Source: Pseudomonadota bacterium (GTDB lineage Bacteria; Pseudomonadota; Alphaproteobacteria; Rickettsiales; SXRF01). From it: a stretch of 64,000 nt of DNA. Positions within the stretch are counted from its first letter, which is position 1; every line of letters begins with the position of its first letter. The stretch lies in contig CAUJHR010000011.1 of assembly GCA_963205195.1 (NCBI GenBank), forward strand, positions 191,116 through 255,115, read 5' to 3'. Made by a program: the position numbers and the translations under genes. Shown here piece by piece: positions 3,436-60,853 of the stretch. Below the pieces are notes generated by a model. The model searched no databases and was not told the origin of the DNA. It saw nothing but the letters and a program-made list of their open reading frames with translations.

Positions 3436-3473
3436 TTATATATTAATAACAGATGGTTATGCAATTAGCCAAA

Positions 3474-3502
3474 CTGTAATAATACTTTCATCCAAGCTTC
3501 AC
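3474..3502 (+). promoter_or_regulatory. Pho-box-like triple heptamer repeat
   Basis: Three 7-mers spaced 11 bp apart: CTGTAAT, CTTTCAT, GCTTCAC. The first two match the classic PhoB half-site CTGTCAT at 6 of 7 each. A TATATT hexamer follows at 3524, 21 bp after the last repeat, which is one 11-bp step more than the usual 10. It lies 34 bp before the unknown gene at 3536. Confidence 0.5.
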
Positions 3503-3535: not shown

Positions 3536-3913
3536 ATGAAACAAATATACCCTGATAACAAAACGGATAATTACCATGTTAACGAAATAGTCGTTGATGG
3601 TTTGGTCGTGCCCCAACATGTAATTATTGAACTTAAAAAAAATAATTTATCAGTGCATAATTTTAATAAAGGTGAATTAGAAGATATTATTAAAGCCTGT
3701 GCTGTTGATGGTAATCTGGTAGACGATCATGAAGGCGGTACATTGCGCGACAAAATGGTATTAACCGAATCAGAGCGCAGGCAACAAAGAAATAAAAAAA
3801 GCTGGGTGGAAAGATGCTGCCCGGAGAACCATGATTGTGAAGAACACCGGGAAAAAATTGAAAAAGAACGTAAAGCTAGAAAAACAGGTCACCATCTAGT
3901 GGAAAGCTGCTAA
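3536..3913 (+). CDS. Unknown 125-residue soluble protein behind a Pho-box-like promoter
   Basis: I do not recognise a family. No signal peptide or membrane segment is visible. The N-terminal 70 residues look globular (VNEIVVDGLVVPQHVIIEL). The C-terminal third is charged and holds Cys residues in CCPENHDC plus a last-residue Cys (VESC), which could bind metal or form disulfides. It occupies the place after rpoN where hpf is usual, and its upstream region carries three 11-bp-spaced PhoB-like repeats, so phosphate control is inferred. It is convergent with ftsB, with 4 bp between the stops. Confidence 0.7.
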   Translation: MKQIYPDNKTDNYHVNEIVVDGLVVPQHVIIELKKNNLSVHNFNKGELEDIIKACAVDGNLVDDHEGGTLRDKMVLTESERRQQRNKKSWVERCCPENHDCEEHREKIEKERKARKTGHHLVESC

Positions 3914-10935: not shown

Positions 10936-11592
10936 CTATTGGCCGGTTATAGATGTTGACGATCCAGAAGGAGTTGCGCCGATGCGGTAATCAAGTATAG
11001 CTTTTGCACCACGTTCGCTTGGCGATTCATTCGATGATTTACCACGCTCCAGATCACGCGGGTCATCTATCATCATTCCAAAATTTGTTTTTGTCGCACA
11101 GCCGAAATTTGCAGGAAGGGAATTACTATAGGTTGTTACAGGCGACATTTTCCAATCCGGGCAATCAGGTGGAATCACTGCTGCATAAGCAATGTCTATG
11201 ACTATTTTATCGTGTGGAAGCCCTGCTTGGGTGAAGAATTCAGGCTTTGTAGTGAATCCAGCTTTGGCTAACAAATCATGTACGTATTTCATACGCTCTG
11301 TTTTCTGATTCATACTGGTTGTTGAACCAATATAAATTTTGCTGACTGCATGCGGATTTATATCGGCCAGTTCGCTATGCAGATTTGCGATTTTATCACT
11401 TGCTAGAGTGGTTTGTGAATTTTTAAACTGTAGACCAGTTTGGAAATGCCTGGTTTCAACCTTGTTCTCCCTAGGATGTGCAGCGTAATATTCCTGCGGG
11501 TCATGCCCCTGCAAATCATAAGTTGGGGAACAGGATACAAAAAGCGTTAAAGCTACGGCGCATAATAATGATTCTATTTTAAAGATCGCCAT
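10936..11592 (-). CDS. cpaD: CpaD family pilus lipoprotein
   Basis: 218 residues. A lipoprotein signal ends at the lipobox LFVSC (Cys about residue 21), followed by CSPTYDLQGHDPQEYYAAHP and the CpaD hallmark PDCPDWKMSPVTTYSNSLPANFGCATKTNFGMMIDDPRDL. It probably helps the CpaC secretin assemble in the outer membrane. It lies between cpaC (3-bp gap) and cpaE (20-bp gap). Confidence 0.92.
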   Translation of the reverse strand: MAIFKIESLLCAVALTLFVSCSPTYDLQGHDPQEYYAAHPRENKVETRHFQTGLQFKNSQTTLASDKIANLHSELADINPHAVSKIYIGSTTSMNQKTERMKYVHDLLAKAGFTTKPEFFTQAGLPHDKIVIDIAYAAVIPPDCPDWKMSPVTTYSNSLPANFGCATKTNFGMMIDDPRDLERGKSSNESPSERGAKAILDYRIGATPSGSSTSITGQ

Positions 11593-19228: not shown

Positions 19229-19327
19229 AGCAAAACTCTCTAATTGAAATTTATAGAAAAAATCCTACACAGTTAATACTACATATAGTAGTATGAATTG
19301 GAATATTCACTTATCAGGACACTAATT

Positions 19328-20041
19328 ATGACTATTGGCCACCATACGTTGCGTTCTTACGACAAGCAATTGCAGCGCCTCCTATCCCTTATACTCGATA
19401 TGGGAAAGGAAGTGCAGGACCTTGTGATAGCTGCAAAGAAATCATTCCGTCAACGCGATGAAGGTAAAGTTGCCGATGCCAAGCTTGCTGATAAACATAT
19501 CAATGAGCTGGATCTGATGATCGAAGAAGAAGCCACCGTGGTGCTTGCCCTGCAAAACCCAATGGCTATTGATCTGCGTTTTGTTATAGCGATAATAAAA
19601 ATTACAGGCATGCTTGAGCATGCAGGCGATCTTGCGAAGAACACAGTAAAACGCAGTGTTAGAATGGGTGATTTCGCGCCGGAAGCAGCAATAGTAAAGC
19701 TTGAAAAAATGGCGGATATAATAGTGGAAATGCTTGACGGGGCACTTACAGCCTTTGCCGAGAAGAACACGCAGAAAGCTGCTATTATCTGGCGGCGCGA
19801 TAAGGAAATTGATGCTCTATACCGCGAATTGGTTGAAATGATGCAGAAAGAAATGGCGAGTGCATCGGCTAATATCATACCTTGCACGCAAGTGGTGTTT
19901 TCAGCAAAGAACCTTGAGCGACTTGGCGATTATACAACCAACCTTGCAAAGATCGTTTATTATGTGACGGCTGGAAAACGTCCCGATAAAGCCACGCTTA
20001 AAAGTTTAATTGAAGATGCTAACACATCGGTGGCGAATTAA
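19328..20041 (+). CDS. phoU: PhoU phosphate signalling regulator
   Basis: 237 residues from the ATG at 19328; the ORF track begins at a TTG 30 bp earlier. AGGAC lies 8 nt before this ATG. Two PhoU three-helix repeats are visible, each with the E(x)DELD-like metal motif (ADKHINELDLMIEEE near 50 and RRDKEIDALYRELVEMM near 160) and LERLGDYTTNLAKIVYYVTAG near the end. PhoU dampens PhoR/PhoB signalling through the Pst transporter. No pst or phoB/R genes are in the window. It sits between rlmH and gpmI, an unusual location. Confidence 0.95.
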   Translation: MTIGHHTLRSYDKQLQRLLSLILDMGKEVQDLVIAAKKSFRQRDEGKVADAKLADKHINELDLMIEEEATVVLALQNPMAIDLRFVIAIIKITGMLEHAGDLAKNTVKRSVRMGDFAPEAAIVKLEKMADIIVEMLDGALTAFAEKNTQKAAIIWRRDKEIDALYRELVEMMQKEMASASANIIPCTQVVFSAKNLERLGDYTTNLAKIVYYVTAGKRPDKATLKSLIEDANTSVAN

Positions 20042-43191: not shown

Positions 43192-44193
43192 TTAGAAGCG
43201 GTATGATAAGGTGACAACGCCAAATTCAGGCGCATGCTGCTGCGTCTTGTATTCTTTATCCATGAAAACCTGGGTAAATGAAAGGCGGGCTGACCCGTAG
43301 GTTATTGCGGCTCCAACCTGTACGCTGCCTACAAAGCGCTCTTTATCCACGTGCGGGCCGCCACTCCTGAATGTATTGCCATCTAGGAATATATTACGTG
43401 CTATTGCGCTTTCTCCCAGTGTTGTAAATAAATACCCTCCCAGTTGTTTTGTTGGAATAAAGAAATCGGAACCGGGAAGCGATGGGCGTATGCGTGGCGG
43501 GCCGTAATCTGCCGGTAGGTCATAGCCCAGACGGAAAGTTATACCTGTTGAGGCATCGGTATTCACATTGCCTATATTCAGCCCTACATGTGGGGTCATA
43601 TCCACGCCGATGCCAAATGGCGATGCCTCCAGAAGTCCTCTCCACTTGCGCTCGTATGTAAGAACTATGCCTGGTTCATTTTTAAGCTGGCTATCCCACC
43701 CTTGCGGTTGTGTGCTTCCTACAACGTGGTGTACGAATTTCTGGGTTTGCTCAGCATATGCCCAAGGGCCGACCATACCTACTGTAAGCATTACATTATC
43801 GAGGGTTTTCCCAGTATCGGAAACCATGCCAACAGAGCCGTAAAGCCATCCCGCATATGGATGGTCGCCACGGGCTGGCACTTTGCGACTAATATCTTCC
43901 GGAGCAAACATGCTCTGCCCAATAGCAAGGCTTATGCGTTTATTGCCATCACCGGCTATTGGCAAAATATTTGCCCCTTTTCTTATCCATTCTGGTAAAT
44001 TCCCTTCGGGAGAAAGGTATGAGAAGCGTATTCCGTTTGTATAATCCCTGTCGGTTCCGGCAAAAATATCGTTTTCTAGAACAACATTAAAAATTCCCTT
44101 ATCATCTTCAATTACCCTTTCATCCGCAGCAAATACGTAATTTGTAGTAATGGCATACGCAACTAGGGAAATAATAAGGCGGGATAAATTCAT
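43192..44193 (-). CDS. LpxR-like outer-membrane protein (DUF2219)
   Basis: 333 residues from ATG 44193 (MNLSRLIISLVAYAITTNYV signal peptide); the ORF track adds 52 unlikely residues. The first beta strand FNVVLENDIFAGTDRDYTNG is the LpxR signature with the Asn/Asp active-site region, then HPYAGWLYGSVGM and a final aromatic VVTLSYRF C-terminus for BAM insertion. LpxR removes the 3'-acyloxyacyl chain from lipid A. Activity is inferred only. Confidence 0.88.
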   Translation of the reverse strand: MNLSRLIISLVAYAITTNYVFAADERVIEDDKGIFNVVLENDIFAGTDRDYTNGIRFSYLSPEGNLPEWIRKGANILPIAGDGNKRISLAIGQSMFAPEDISRKVPARGDHPYAGWLYGSVGMVSDTGKTLDNVMLTVGMVGPWAYAEQTQKFVHHVVGSTQPQGWDSQLKNEPGIVLTYERKWRGLLEASPFGIGVDMTPHVGLNIGNVNTDASTGITFRLGYDLPADYGPPRIRPSLPGSDFFIPTKQLGGYLFTTLGESAIARNIFLDGNTFRSGGPHVDKERFVGSVQVGAAITYGSARLSFTQVFMDKEYKTQQHAPEFGVVTLSYRF

Positions 44194-44295
44194 AAAAAAT
44201 TTTATAATGTTTAATTTGTTCAATGGAAGAATAAGGCAGTTGCCTGTAATGAAGCGATATAAAGAAGCATTATAAATATATTTTTTATATAAAGA

Positions 44296-44331
44296 ATAAA
44301 AAAACGCCCGGCGAGGGGAGAACGCCGGGCG
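44296..44331 (-). terminator. Terminator of the 44379-44627 gene
   Basis: CGCCCGGCG pairs perfectly with CGCCGGGCG (9 bp, GC-rich) around a 9-nt loop. On the minus strand it ends in a T run of at least 7. Confidence 0.95.
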
Positions 44332-44378
44332 GTGAATTTTAAACTGCAAGATTACATAGTCGCAAGTTATCTCCCTCC

Positions 44379-44706: not shown

Positions 44707-44741
44707 ATTTCACGAAACTGTAACAAACATATTTGTAATAT
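44707..44741 (+). promoter_or_regulatory. Pho-box-like promoter
   Basis: ATTTCAC, GAAA, CTGTAAC (second half-site 6 of 7 to CTGTCAC), then 11 bp to TAATAT. This is the normal PhoB box to -10 distance. It lies 40 bp before the gene at 44782. Confidence 0.55.
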
Positions 44742-44781: not shown

Positions 44782-45240
44782 ATGACTAGCGTAAATATTT
44801 CCATGCCATCAAGACCATTAGACTCTCAGTATAGGAGTGCCCTATCTAATGCGGCTGATATTATGCATGTTATGTCAGAGCGTTTTGCTGTTGATATGCA
44901 AGGCGACTTTATAAAAATCAAAGAAAATGGATCTGATCCGCAGTTGGCAATAAATTTTACTATTAAAGGCCTAAAAGGTGAAGGTGTAGCAAATATAATA
45001 AAGGAGTTCTTCAAGGAAGATGCTCTATCTAAGGGGTACGCTACACCTATTATCAAGACTGAAAGGGAAGATGTAGTCCTTTTGAGTTTAAATAATATGC
45101 CTGAATATACAAAAGAACAAATGGCGTCATTGAAGAATAGTGCTCAACATTTTCAGCCACATTCTGATGCAGGCAAGCCTAATTTTGCTAATAGAGTTCT
45201 GCAATTTCCAAAATCTAATATAGAGCTTGGAAGAAATTAA
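44782..45240 (+). CDS. Unknown 152-residue soluble protein behind a Pho-box-like promoter
   Basis: Not recognised. AAGGAG lies 8 nt before the ATG. The chain has a helical N-terminal part (YRSALSNAADIMHVMSERFA), a strand pair around GDFIKIKENGSDPQLAINFT, a helix (ANIIKEFFKEDALSKG) and a polar tail. No signal peptide. Upstream, a PhoB-like box at correct distance from a TAATAT -10 suggests phosphate control. Confidence 0.7.
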   Translation: MTSVNISMPSRPLDSQYRSALSNAADIMHVMSERFAVDMQGDFIKIKENGSDPQLAINFTIKGLKGEGVANIIKEFFKEDALSKGYATPIIKTEREDVVLLSLNNMPEYTKEQMASLKNSAQHFQPHSDAGKPNFANRVLQFPKSNIELGRN

Positions 45241-45350: not shown

Positions 45351-46487
45351 ATGATCATAGAAACTCCTCCTGCAATCCGGGATTACAGCAAGTTTGGGGT
45401 TATTGCACCCCTGCTCGCCGACCATACGATAAACGATATTCTGATCAATGGTTATAATGATATTTATATTGAGCGCGAAGGTGTGCTTGAAAAAACCGAT
45501 GTGGTTTTTGAAAGCGAAAAAGAAGTCCATGAGCTGGCGCATTACATTGTAAAACTCGTAGGCAGGACCCTTGAAGAATCCCGCCCCATGGTAGATGCCC
45601 GCCTTGCTGACGGAAGCCGCGTGAACATAATTGCCCCTCCTCTAGCTGTTGACGGCACAACAATCTCAATCAGAAAATTCGCTCCGAAAAAACGTTCTCT
45701 GAATGATATGGTGAATCAGGGATGTATGTCGGAAGCAATGTGTGAATTCCTAAAACTGGCTGCTATCTGCCGAATGAATATTTTGATTTCCGGCGGTACG
45801 GGTTCTGGTAAAACAACTTTGCTTAATGCTATTTCCAACCATATCAATGAATGGGAACGCGTGGTTACAATCGAGGATGCCGCAGAATTGCAATTGCAGA
45901 AAGCGCATGTGGTACGCCTGGAATCACAGCCTGCAATACTGGGTGAAAATCCAAAAGAAGAAGTTACTATCCGTGACCTCGTTAAAAACGCCCTGCGTAT
46001 GCGCCCTGACCGAATTATACTTGGCGAGGTACGCGGCGCTGAAGCTTTTGACATGTTACAAGCAATGAATACCGGCCATGAAGGTTCGCTGGCAACCATC
46101 CATGCCAACCACCCGCGTGATGCTCTTATGCGTCTTGATAATATAGTTAGTATGGCCAACGTGAACGCTTCAATCCGTTCAGTCAGGACGCAGGTTGCCT
46201 CAGCTATCCATCTTATTATTCAGGTTAGCCGCCAGGGTAACGGTAGCCGCCGTATTTCTTTTATTTCCGAAATTGCTGGTATGGAAGGTGACATGATCAC
46301 TATGAACGAGCTTTTCAACTGTTCCAAAGAAGGAAATAATGTCGGCGTTGCACTTTCAACTGACGGTATTTTTAAATGGACTGGTGTAATGCCGCGCTGC
46401 CTGCGCCGTGTAGCTTATTACGGCGAACTGGACAGGCTCTCTAAAGCCTTGGGTGTCCGCATACCTAAAGTCCAACCTAATATGTAG
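45351..46487 (+). CDS. Second CpaF/TadA-type secretion ATPase (orphan copy)
   Basis: 378 residues. It lacks the long N-terminal region of the first CpaF and starts near YSKFGVIAPLLADHTINDIL. Walker A ISGGTGSGKTTLLNA (about 145), Walker B RIILGEVRGAEAFDML (about 220), and ATIHANHPRDALMRL. It has no tad neighbours; hpf follows after 153 bp. It may power a variant pilus or secretion step with distant tadB/C, or swap with the first copy (inference). GAGA precedes the ATG. Confidence 0.93.
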   Translation: MIIETPPAIRDYSKFGVIAPLLADHTINDILINGYNDIYIEREGVLEKTDVVFESEKEVHELAHYIVKLVGRTLEESRPMVDARLADGSRVNIIAPPLAVDGTTISIRKFAPKKRSLNDMVNQGCMSEAMCEFLKLAAICRMNILISGGTGSGKTTLLNAISNHINEWERVVTIEDAAELQLQKAHVVRLESQPAILGENPKEEVTIRDLVKNALRMRPDRIILGEVRGAEAFDMLQAMNTGHEGSLATIHANHPRDALMRLDNIVSMANVNASIRSVRTQVASAIHLIIQVSRQGNGSRRISFISEIAGMEGDMITMNELFNCSKEGNNVGVALSTDGIFKWTGVMPRCLRRVAYYGELDRLSKALGVRIPKVQPNM

Positions 46488-49085: not shown

Positions 49086-49102
49086 TGTCACACAATCTTC
49101 AC
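49085..49102 (+). promoter_or_regulatory. Weak Pho-box-like pair
   Basis: ATGTCAC, ACAA, TCTTCAC with 11-bp period (5 and 4 of 7 matches to CTGTCAC). No convincing -10 at the expected distance. It precedes the unknown gene at 49163 by 60 bp. Confidence 0.25.
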
Positions 49103-49162: not shown

Positions 49163-49615
49163 ATGGCTACACAAGAAAACGCTGCTCCGCAAGGTGGAAA
49201 TAATGGAGAATCTGTAAAAGGAATAGGCAGGGAGCTTGCAGTTGAGCAAAAAATAGATAAACAAGAAAACCTCTCGCAAACTAAAACAGAAAAAGAAAAG
49301 CACCCTCTTGTAGCCTTATTAGAAGTGATATTAAGCCTTATGGGTGTTACGCAGGAAGAAAAGGCGCATGTTAAGGCTGACCCAACTATTCAGAAAGGTG
49401 CATCAGTGCAAACTATTGAGGCTTCAGCTGCAAGGGTAGCACCTGAAAGAAGTTCTGCAATTGCTGGTTTGCCTGAAACTGAGCTTGCTAAAATTGCCCA
49501 GGAAAAAAATGTATTAATGGGTAGCAAGGCTGAGATGCAGAAAGAAACACCTACCCATATTGCTTATAATGGTGGTAAATCCCCGCAACAACAGGCTACT
49601 TCACATACGGTTTAG
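49163..49615 (+). CDS. Unknown 150-residue hydrophilic protein
   Basis: Not recognised. Polar, Gln/Lys/Glu-rich N-terminus, a short hydrophobic helix (about 50-62, [16 protein letters not shown]), then an Ala/Ser-rich second half. It has no cleavable signal, and the helix is too short for a secure membrane span. The 3' end overlaps the convergent aroC by 20 bp. No strong ribosome site. Confidence 0.55.
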
Positions 49616-54649: not shown

Positions 54650-54667
54650 ATTTCATAAAACTGTCAC
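54650..54667 (+). promoter_or_regulatory. Pho-box-like pair before the DUF192 genes
   Basis: ATTTCAT, AAAA, CTGTCAC. The second half-site is perfect and the 4-bp spacer is the classical one. A clear -10 at 10-11 bp is missing; the only TAATAT overlaps the start codon. Confidence 0.45.
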
Positions 54668-54688: not shown

Positions 54689-55159
54689 ATGGGAAATAAC
54701 AGGTTTTTTGCTGTAATATTGCTTATCATATGTGGGCTTTACTCTTCCGTAGGGTATGCTGATCAGCATGTTACTTTCACAAAAGAATCCATTGCTGTTC
54801 AAACTGGGGGTGAAAAACATATATTTCACACCGAAATAGCAACTACAGAAATTCAACTGCAAACAGGATTGATGTTTCGTAAAAATATAGACGAAGACAG
54901 CGCTATGCTGTTCATATTTGATAATATGCCACTGGTAAATATGTGGATGAAAAACACGCTTATCCCATTGGATATGCTATTTATAGGTCCGGATGGAAAA
55001 ATAGTTTATATAAAGCATGATGCAAAGCCACAATCACTTGATGTAATAAATGCAGGTGCACTACCGGTGCAGGCAGTTATGGAATTGAAAGGCGGGATTG
55101 CTGCAAAAAAACATATAAACATTGGTGACAGAGTTATTTATAAGGCATTCAGACAATGA
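54689..55159 (+). CDS. DUF192 family exported protein
   Basis: 156 residues. Signal peptide (1-24, FAVILLIICGLYSSVGYA). The DUF192 core includes EIQLQTGLMFRKNIDEDSAM, LFIFDNMPLVNMWMKNTLIP and LDMLFIGPDGKIVYIKHDA. The family is widespread and small; its function is not established. It overlaps the next gene by 4 bp (ATGA). A Pho-box-like pair precedes it. Confidence 0.92.
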   Translation: MGNNRFFAVILLIICGLYSSVGYADQHVTFTKESIAVQTGGEKHIFHTEIATTEIQLQTGLMFRKNIDEDSAMLFIFDNMPLVNMWMKNTLIPLDMLFIGPDGKIVYIKHDAKPQSLDVINAGALPVQAVMELKGGIAAKKHINIGDRVIYKAFRQ

Positions 55160-59691: not shown

Positions 59692-60552
59692 ATGACTACA
59701 CATGACGCAATCAGGGTTTTGCAACGCATAGCAACGGCTCTTGAGGAAATGGTTCCCAAGACAAAGCCGCCAGCTGATATTAAAAACTCAGATGCTTATG
59801 TTTGGAACGCGGAAGAAAAAAACCTTATCCCGGTTGAGTATCCTGAATCCATGGATATTAAATTATTACAGGGAATAGATGAAGCTCGTGATACATTGCT
59901 TGCCAATACCATACAATTTTCTAAGGGATTGCCTGCTAACAATGTATTGCTGTGGGGCGCACGCGGGATGGGTAAAAGCTCGCTCATCAAAGCAGTGCAT
60001 GCCCATATAAACCAGCAAAATCCAAGAAGTCTGGTGCTGGTCGAAATACACCGCGAAGATATTGCCTCGCTTCCCCAGCTGATACAAACATTGCGCGGTT
60101 GGGTTATACGCCGCTTTATAATTTTTTGCGATGATCTGTCATTCGATAGCAATGACAGCAGTTATAAATCACTGAAATCAGTTTTGGATGGCGGGATTGA
60201 AGGACGCCCGGCACATATATTATTTTATGCAACCTCCAACCGCCGCCATTTAATGGCACGTGAAATGATCGAAAATGAAAGTAATGCGGCAATTCATGCT
60301 GGCGAACCGCTAGAAGAAAAAGTCTCACTTTCTGACCGCTTTGGCTTGTGGATCGGATTTTATTCCTGCTCGCAGGATACTTACCTTAATATAGTGGAAG
60401 CCTATGTAAAACGTTATAAACTTGATATATCGCCAGAGGATTTAAAGAAAAAAGCTATCGAATGGCAGATAACGCGCGGGGCAAGAAGTGGCCGCGTGGC
60501 ATGGCAGTTCATTCAAGATTTAGCAGGGAAAATGGGAAAAAAGCTTTTGTAG
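59692..60552 (+). CDS. DUF815 P-loop ATPase
   Basis: 286 residues. Walker A LLWGARGMGKSSLIKAVHAH (about 83-102), Walker B FIIFCDDLSFD (about 141-151) and ATSNRRHLMAREMIENE (sensor region), then DRFGLWIGFY and a C-terminal winged-helix-like part. Function unknown. In alphaproteobacteria it is usually near the M23 lipoprotein-pcm-surE-serS block, which follows here on the opposite strand. Confidence 0.93.
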   Translation: MTTHDAIRVLQRIATALEEMVPKTKPPADIKNSDAYVWNAEEKNLIPVEYPESMDIKLLQGIDEARDTLLANTIQFSKGLPANNVLLWGARGMGKSSLIKAVHAHINQQNPRSLVLVEIHREDIASLPQLIQTLRGWVIRRFIIFCDDLSFDSNDSSYKSLKSVLDGGIEGRPAHILFYATSNRRHLMAREMIENESNAAIHAGEPLEEKVSLSDRFGLWIGFYSCSQDTYLNIVEAYVKRYKLDISPEDLKKKAIEWQITRGARSGRVAWQFIQDLAGKMGKKLL

Positions 60553-60573: not shown

Positions 60574-60609
60574 ATGTCATAAAACTGTAACTGTAAAAAA
60601 TATTATAAA
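60574..60609 (+). promoter_or_regulatory. Pho-box-like promoter, the best copy
   Basis: ATGTCAT, AAAA, CTGTAAC: each half-site matches 6 of 7 to CTGTCAT/CTGTCAC with the exact 4-bp spacer. TATTAT (9 bp after) or TATAAA (12 bp after) supplies the -10. It lies 40 bp before the gene at 60650, whose ribosome site is GGGAGG. Confidence 0.65.
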
Positions 60610-60649
60610 TCGCTACAATTTTGTAGTCAACAGCAAACAGGGAGGAATT

Positions 60650-60853
60650 ATGACTTACACGCCAACTGCAGAAGAAACTAAAGCCATTCATTGGTATGTT
60701 TCTGAAAAATTAGCCGGGCAGAATAAGCCAGGCGCAGCCCATATTATTCAGCATGAACTACTTCGTGATCCTAATGCAGAAGAGAGAATTTCTCGTATAG
60801 TGACAGATTATAAACATGCTAATCCTGTTGAGAAAGGAATAGGAAGAGTATAA
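60650..60853 (+). CDS. Unknown 67-residue protein behind the best Pho-box
   Basis: Not recognised. GGGAGG lies 6 nt before the ATG. Mainly helical (AEETKAIHWYVSEKLAG; AAHIIQHELLRDPNAEERIS; RIVTDYKHAN), with an End GIGRV. No signal or membrane segment. Strong upstream Pho-box makes it a candidate small phosphate-starvation protein (inference). Confidence 0.7.
   Translation: MTYTPTAEETKAIHWYVSEKLAGQNKPGAAHIIQHELLRDPNAEERISRIVTDYKHANPVEKGIGRV

Follow-up and report, generated by a model that had tools for sequence, protein, structure and literature searches.

The 67-aa orphan gene at position 60650 of the window, by which we mean the whole analysed stretch of 64,000 nucleotides, is preceded by a putative PhoB box. 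This site is probably part of a genome-wide PhoB regulon comprising several dozen genes in a lineage of the Rickettsiales, a regulon which has been redirected towards type IV secretion and candidate effectors. Its targets are, time and again, pilins of type IV secretion and orphans, most of them without domains, rather than phosphate-uptake genes, and the classical phosphate-uptake genes appear to lie outside the regulon. PhoB as the regulator of the boxes is well supported, and we infer that orphan proteins may be secreted or translocated. Taken together, this suggests that an old nutrient regulator has been turned into a secretion-system controller.

The box at 60575 and further sites of the window

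A PhoB-like box upstream of the 60650 gene had been the core of the original prediction, and the site at 60575 (Table 1) indeed scores 24.5 bits with a matrix built solely from 23 sites outside the window, which is far above chance. The promoter had been expected to carry its -10 element 9-12 bp after the box. An AT-rich TATTAT is present at offset 9, but the likely -10 is TACAAT, which begins 22 nt past the box and thereby falls into the genome-wide peak described below. The protein encoded behind the box matches no Pfam or NCBIfam family and has no homolog among 89 relatives. Its single-sequence AlphaFold model consists of three helices with a mean pLDDT of 81.5, and it is therefore plausible, as judged from this model, that the open reading frame encodes a real protein. 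The gene is preceded by a DUF815 AAA+ ATPase gene (59692-60552), which has homologs in the genomes G006, G009, and G018 and is absent from the three same-genus genomes searched. At the DUF815 loci of G006, G009, and G018 no box was found at up to 3 mismatches, and an equivalent small gene was not seen at those of G006 and G009.

Table 1. Boxes, promoter elements, and genes of the window, given in window coordinates.
Feature	Position	Strand	Remarks
PhoU gene	19298..20041	+	PF01895, 112 bits; no box in the promoter (matrix scan)
PhoB-type box TTTCACGAAACTGTAAC	44708..44724	+	24.6 bits; -10 TATTAT at offset 21
152-aa orphan gene behind the 44708 box	44782..45240	+	
TadA/VirB11-like ATPase gene	45351-46487		starts 110 bp after the 152-aa orphan gene
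PhoB-type box TGTCACACAATCTTCAC	49086..49102	+	19.9 bits; not part of the original prediction
150-aa orphan gene downstream of the 49086 box	49163..49615	+	no Pfam match
PhoB-type box TTTCATAAAACTGTCAC	54651..54667	+	26.2 bits; spacing incompatible with a -10 at 21-23 nt
DUF192 protein gene	54689..55159	+	PF02643; signal peptide-like start
PhoB-type box TGTCATAAAACTGTAAC	60575..60591	+	two half-sites, 11-bp pitch; TGTCAT-AAAA-CTGTAAC; 0 mismatches to the pattern
-10 element TACAAT in GCTACAAT	60614..60619	+	begins 22 nt past the box; matches the genome-wide peak at 21-23 nt
Shine-Dalgarno GGGAGG	60640..60645	+	from the sequence
67-aa orphan protein gene	60650..60853	+	ATG at 60650; predicted three-helix fold

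With the same matrix, the three sites at 54651, 44708, and 60575 reach 24.5-26.2 bits, the new site at 49086 follows with 19.9 bits, and the next best site of the window has 12.8 bits. Similar boxes had been proposed for three further places, which fared differently. In front of the orphan gene at 44782 the box is clearly present. The DUF192 pair at 54689 likewise has a box, the highest scoring of the window, but with an ATG just 21 nt past it and no -10 at 21-23 nt this site fits neither the spacing of 21-23 nt nor that of ~10 nt, and its function is therefore doubtful. A DUF192 homolog of G005 also carries a box, 37 nt ahead of a start codon. A clear box before the orphan gene at 3536 was rejected, since the best matches there have 8.7-10.5 bits, which is background level. 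They lie in three overlapping 11-bp registers (3464/3475/3486), and a TATATT is found 22 nt past the last half-site of these degenerate boxes (3464-3502), which may represent either the remains of an array or chance. The window also encodes a CpaD pilus protein (10936-11592), and from this gene and that of the TadA/VirB11-like ATPase a Tad/Flp pilus may be encoded as well. An LpxR outer-membrane lipid A deacylase homolog (PF09982, 355 bits) is located at 43192-44349.

Genome-wide occurrence of the motif and promoter geometry

In the whole genome to which the window belongs (G000; 1.88 Mb, 24 contigs), the pattern TKTCAYRAAACTGTMAY has 42 matches with at most 2 mismatches, versus nine for the reversed-pattern control. 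The only three matches without any mismatch are the window sites that the pattern was written from and hence are no independent evidence, which the other 39 are. About 30 sites, among them the one at 60575, are near-identical, and the majority of sites is intergenic, with a start codon in the same direction following at 40-110 bp. In third-order Markov DNA amounting to one genome-equivalent, no match of 18 bits or more occurred. The motif is not simply found at random positions, which would have spoken against the original prediction. The genome-wide counts come from pattern searches, and the matrix scans covered ~326 kb, in stretches with a bias towards sites. The pattern matches do not comprise the entire regulon, since a box of 19.8 bits with a CTATAAT -10, in front of a gene for a 100-aa orphan (L045 159-536, contig 5), was missed at 2 mismatches.

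The promoters share a fixed geometry. A -10-like hexamer starts 21-23 nt past the box at 16 of 26 sites, compared to 2 on average and at most 7 in shuffled flanks. It is highly improbable that AT-rich promoters merely resemble a PhoB box by chance. This would agree with the background level at 3536 and with the number of window matches at 3 mismatches, which is near chance, but it explains neither the excess over the reversed pattern and the simulated DNA nor the fixed -10 distance, nor the conservation of box-gene pairs in other genera, which is described below.

Among the relatives, the distance to the -10 is 21-23 nt in G035 and ~10 nt in G020 and G049, whereas G005 has both. In the E. coli promoters of phoA and pstS the spacing between box and -10 is ten nt. 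The two spacing classes differ by ~11 bp, which corresponds to one PhoB half-site. Furthermore, L073, L082, and L283 show tandem, overlapping half-sites at 11 bp, and such an arrangement is what PhoB arrays would give. The box consensus of the relatives is TGTCAT-N4-CTGTCAT.

PhoB as the probable regulator and the position of the phosphate genes

The genome contains exactly one PhoB equivalog above the cut-off (TIGR02154, 330.6 bits versus 296.2). The closest PDB entry to its DNA-binding domain is E. coli PhoB, whose recognition helix is almost the same; among the six full-length OmpR-family regulators of the genome, only this PhoB keeps it. A PhoR-like kinase gene adjoins pstC-A-B. PhoB and a PhoR-like kinase are both present, and their absence would have contradicted the original prediction. 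A PstS-type gene is located at the edge of contig 24, and phoU lies within the window as had been noted.

The motif follows PhoB among the relatives. Out of 55 genomes surveyed, the near-complete ones show enrichment (p<0.01) in 20 of 24 cases with a PhoB orthologue and in none of 16 without. The corresponding Fisher value of 1.5e-7, uncorrected for phylogeny, is optimistic, because related genomes are not independent. Two PhoB-less genomes of ~2 Mb (G026, G052) show no enrichment, which argues against an effect of genome size. Counter-cases are G038 and G047, which have a PhoB orthologue and no enrichment, and G049, where the motif is enriched and no PhoB was found in the incomplete assembly.

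A second PhoB-like regulator (C24:13205) was considered as reader of the boxes and rejected, as it is present in only 3 of the 55 relatives. It is also conceivable that another OmpR-family regulator reads 11-bp TGTMA repeats, for instance one of the regulators at C22:49854 or C23:12348, and that PhoB only co-occurs with it. The number of such regulators in the genome, the -10 distance that is unlike that of E. coli PhoB promoters, and the phosphate genes without a box would be in line with this. With PhoB and the second PhoB-like regulator profiled across the relatives, we regard it nevertheless as rather improbable, because the box corresponds to the PhoB consensus, above all in the relatives, the recognition helix is restricted to this PhoB, and the second PhoB-like regulator is so rare.

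No box was found at pstS, the phoR-pstCAB operon, phoB, or phoU. To our knowledge, every textbook Pho regulon has boxes at such pst and phoB genes, unlike this genome. As pstS, phoR-pstCAB, and phoB lack the box, the boxed genes are not a phosphate-acquisition set. Of the idea that several orphan genes are under shared phosphate control, a PhoB-type regulon of unrecognised genes thus remains, but phosphate acquisition as its theme is not supported. An ordinary phosphate-starvation regulon, in which the orphans aid life at low phosphate and the uptake genes are under diverged or unseen boxes, is unlikely, albeit marginally less so than a different regulator. The box is of PhoB type and PhoB, the PhoR-like kinase, PstS, PstCAB, and PhoU are all there, but beside the missing boxes at the phosphate genes also the targets argue against it: no phosphate-acquisition gene is among those scanned, and VirB2 pilins and orphans recur instead. 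Compared to the Pho regulon of E. coli and alphaproteobacteria (PhoR-PhoB), the genome therefore has in common the PhoB orthologue, two TGTCA half-sites at 11-bp pitch, their position at the -35 region, and the presence of PhoR-PhoU-Pst. It differs in that pst, pstS, and phoB are without a box, that VirB2 pilins and orphans are targeted, and that the box is located one half-site further upstream.

Type IV secretion and candidate effectors as proposed targets

Among 20 downstream proteins scanned, two are TrbC/VirB2 pilins, one is LOG/lysine-decarboxylase-like, and 17 have no match above the Pfam cut-off. VirB2-like pilins are found behind boxes in six genomes of five families, namely G000 (with two), G005, G020, G025, G035, and G036, where the pilins of the other genomes were recognised by their similarity to the two Pfam-confirmed ones of G000. 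In G025 and G036 the pilin sits behind the top-scoring box among the matches listed for that genome. One boxed pilin gene stands first in an operon that further encodes a second VirB4 as well as a VirB6-like protein, the latter assigned from size and position (L203 5996-10607, contig 23). On contig 16, the main cluster of rvh type, consisting of VirB3, VirB4, and multiple VirB6-like proteins, has no box within 3 mismatches. With this cluster and several VirB2 copies G000 resembles the rvh type IV secretion system of Rickettsiales, whereas the boxed VirB2-VirB4-VirB6-like operon forms a second one.

At least seven box-gene pairs are common to G000 and G005, which belongs to another genus: VirB2, LOG (87% identity), DUF192 (45%), L025/L289 (44%), L050/L295 (50%), L038/L285 (28%), and the membrane family L036/L055/L283, whose box is also present in G049. 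Sharing of seven by chance has a p of ~2e-7 in a simple hypergeometric model with 1800 genes assumed. The membrane family (L055 2688-4124, L036 1563-2552, L283, and L222) has YLVGDAAL-type segments and no Pfam match above cut-off, and its box occurs in three genera belonging to two families. The C-termini of the target proteins are less hydrophobic than average (last 10 residues, p 0.0003); a net positive charge is not significant. Genomes of the same order contain 13-25 copies of Surface_Ag_2, an expansion that is typical of Anaplasmataceae. It is from this expansion, together with the rvh-type secretion system, that G000 can be assigned to the Rickettsiales.

Based on these findings, the following mechanism can be proposed. 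The PhoR-like kinase would sense phosphate via Pst-PhoU and phosphorylate PhoB, which would bind the 11-bp half-sites head to tail, immediately ahead of the -35 region, and recruit sigma-70 polymerase, with a distance from box end to -10 of 21-23 nt in G000 and ~10 nt in some relatives, the difference being one half-site. Besides VirB2 pilins, the regulon would then activate the second VirB2-VirB4-VirB6-like operon together with many orphans. Among these orphans there may be type IV substrates or proteins of the envelope that are directed against other microbes or protist hosts.

The Icm/Dot effectors of Legionella and Coxiella are controlled by PmrA and CpxR, where one OmpR-family regulator acts on tandem half-sites in front of numerous scattered effector genes, most of which are unique. 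A single OmpR-family regulator, tandem half-sites, and many scattered genes are found here as well, but regulator, box, and secretion system are different, and the targets are candidate effectors only. In Edwardsiella, PhoB controls type III and VI secretion, according to the work cited in PMC12351708. As far as that citation conveys, PhoB is there likewise tied to a secretion system, which is type IV in our case, with direct boxes at numerous scattered genes throughout an order. 'Ca. Aquarickettsia' has PhoR-PhoB, for which a role in phosphate has been suggested, whereas Rickettsia and Midichloria are without (PMC6863919). PhoB is unmentioned in the comparative Rickettsiales papers PMC9352585, PMC10847448, and PMC11077975, and a published report of a PhoB-box/type IV secretion regulon was not found in the literature searched, which mostly did not cover subscription journals.

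We consider it possible, yet somewhat short of an even chance, that PhoB of the Rickettsiales directly activated type IV secretion and the effector repertoire from early on, detached from phosphate uptake, and that the lineages losing PhoB lost this layer of control. In the basal families examined in PMC9352585, none of the experimentally verified type IV effectors was identifiable. In deep-branching uncultured Rickettsiales, effectors have no known domains and therefore easily escape recognition, and a shared promoter box is a homology-free criterion that provides dozens of candidates per genome. Moreover, through the box type IV secretion is linked to a known nutrient signal, so that it becomes testable when and why secretion is used. 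If the early activation of type IV secretion by PhoB is true, the box would be a way of listing candidate effectors in uncultured Rickettsiales from sequence only.
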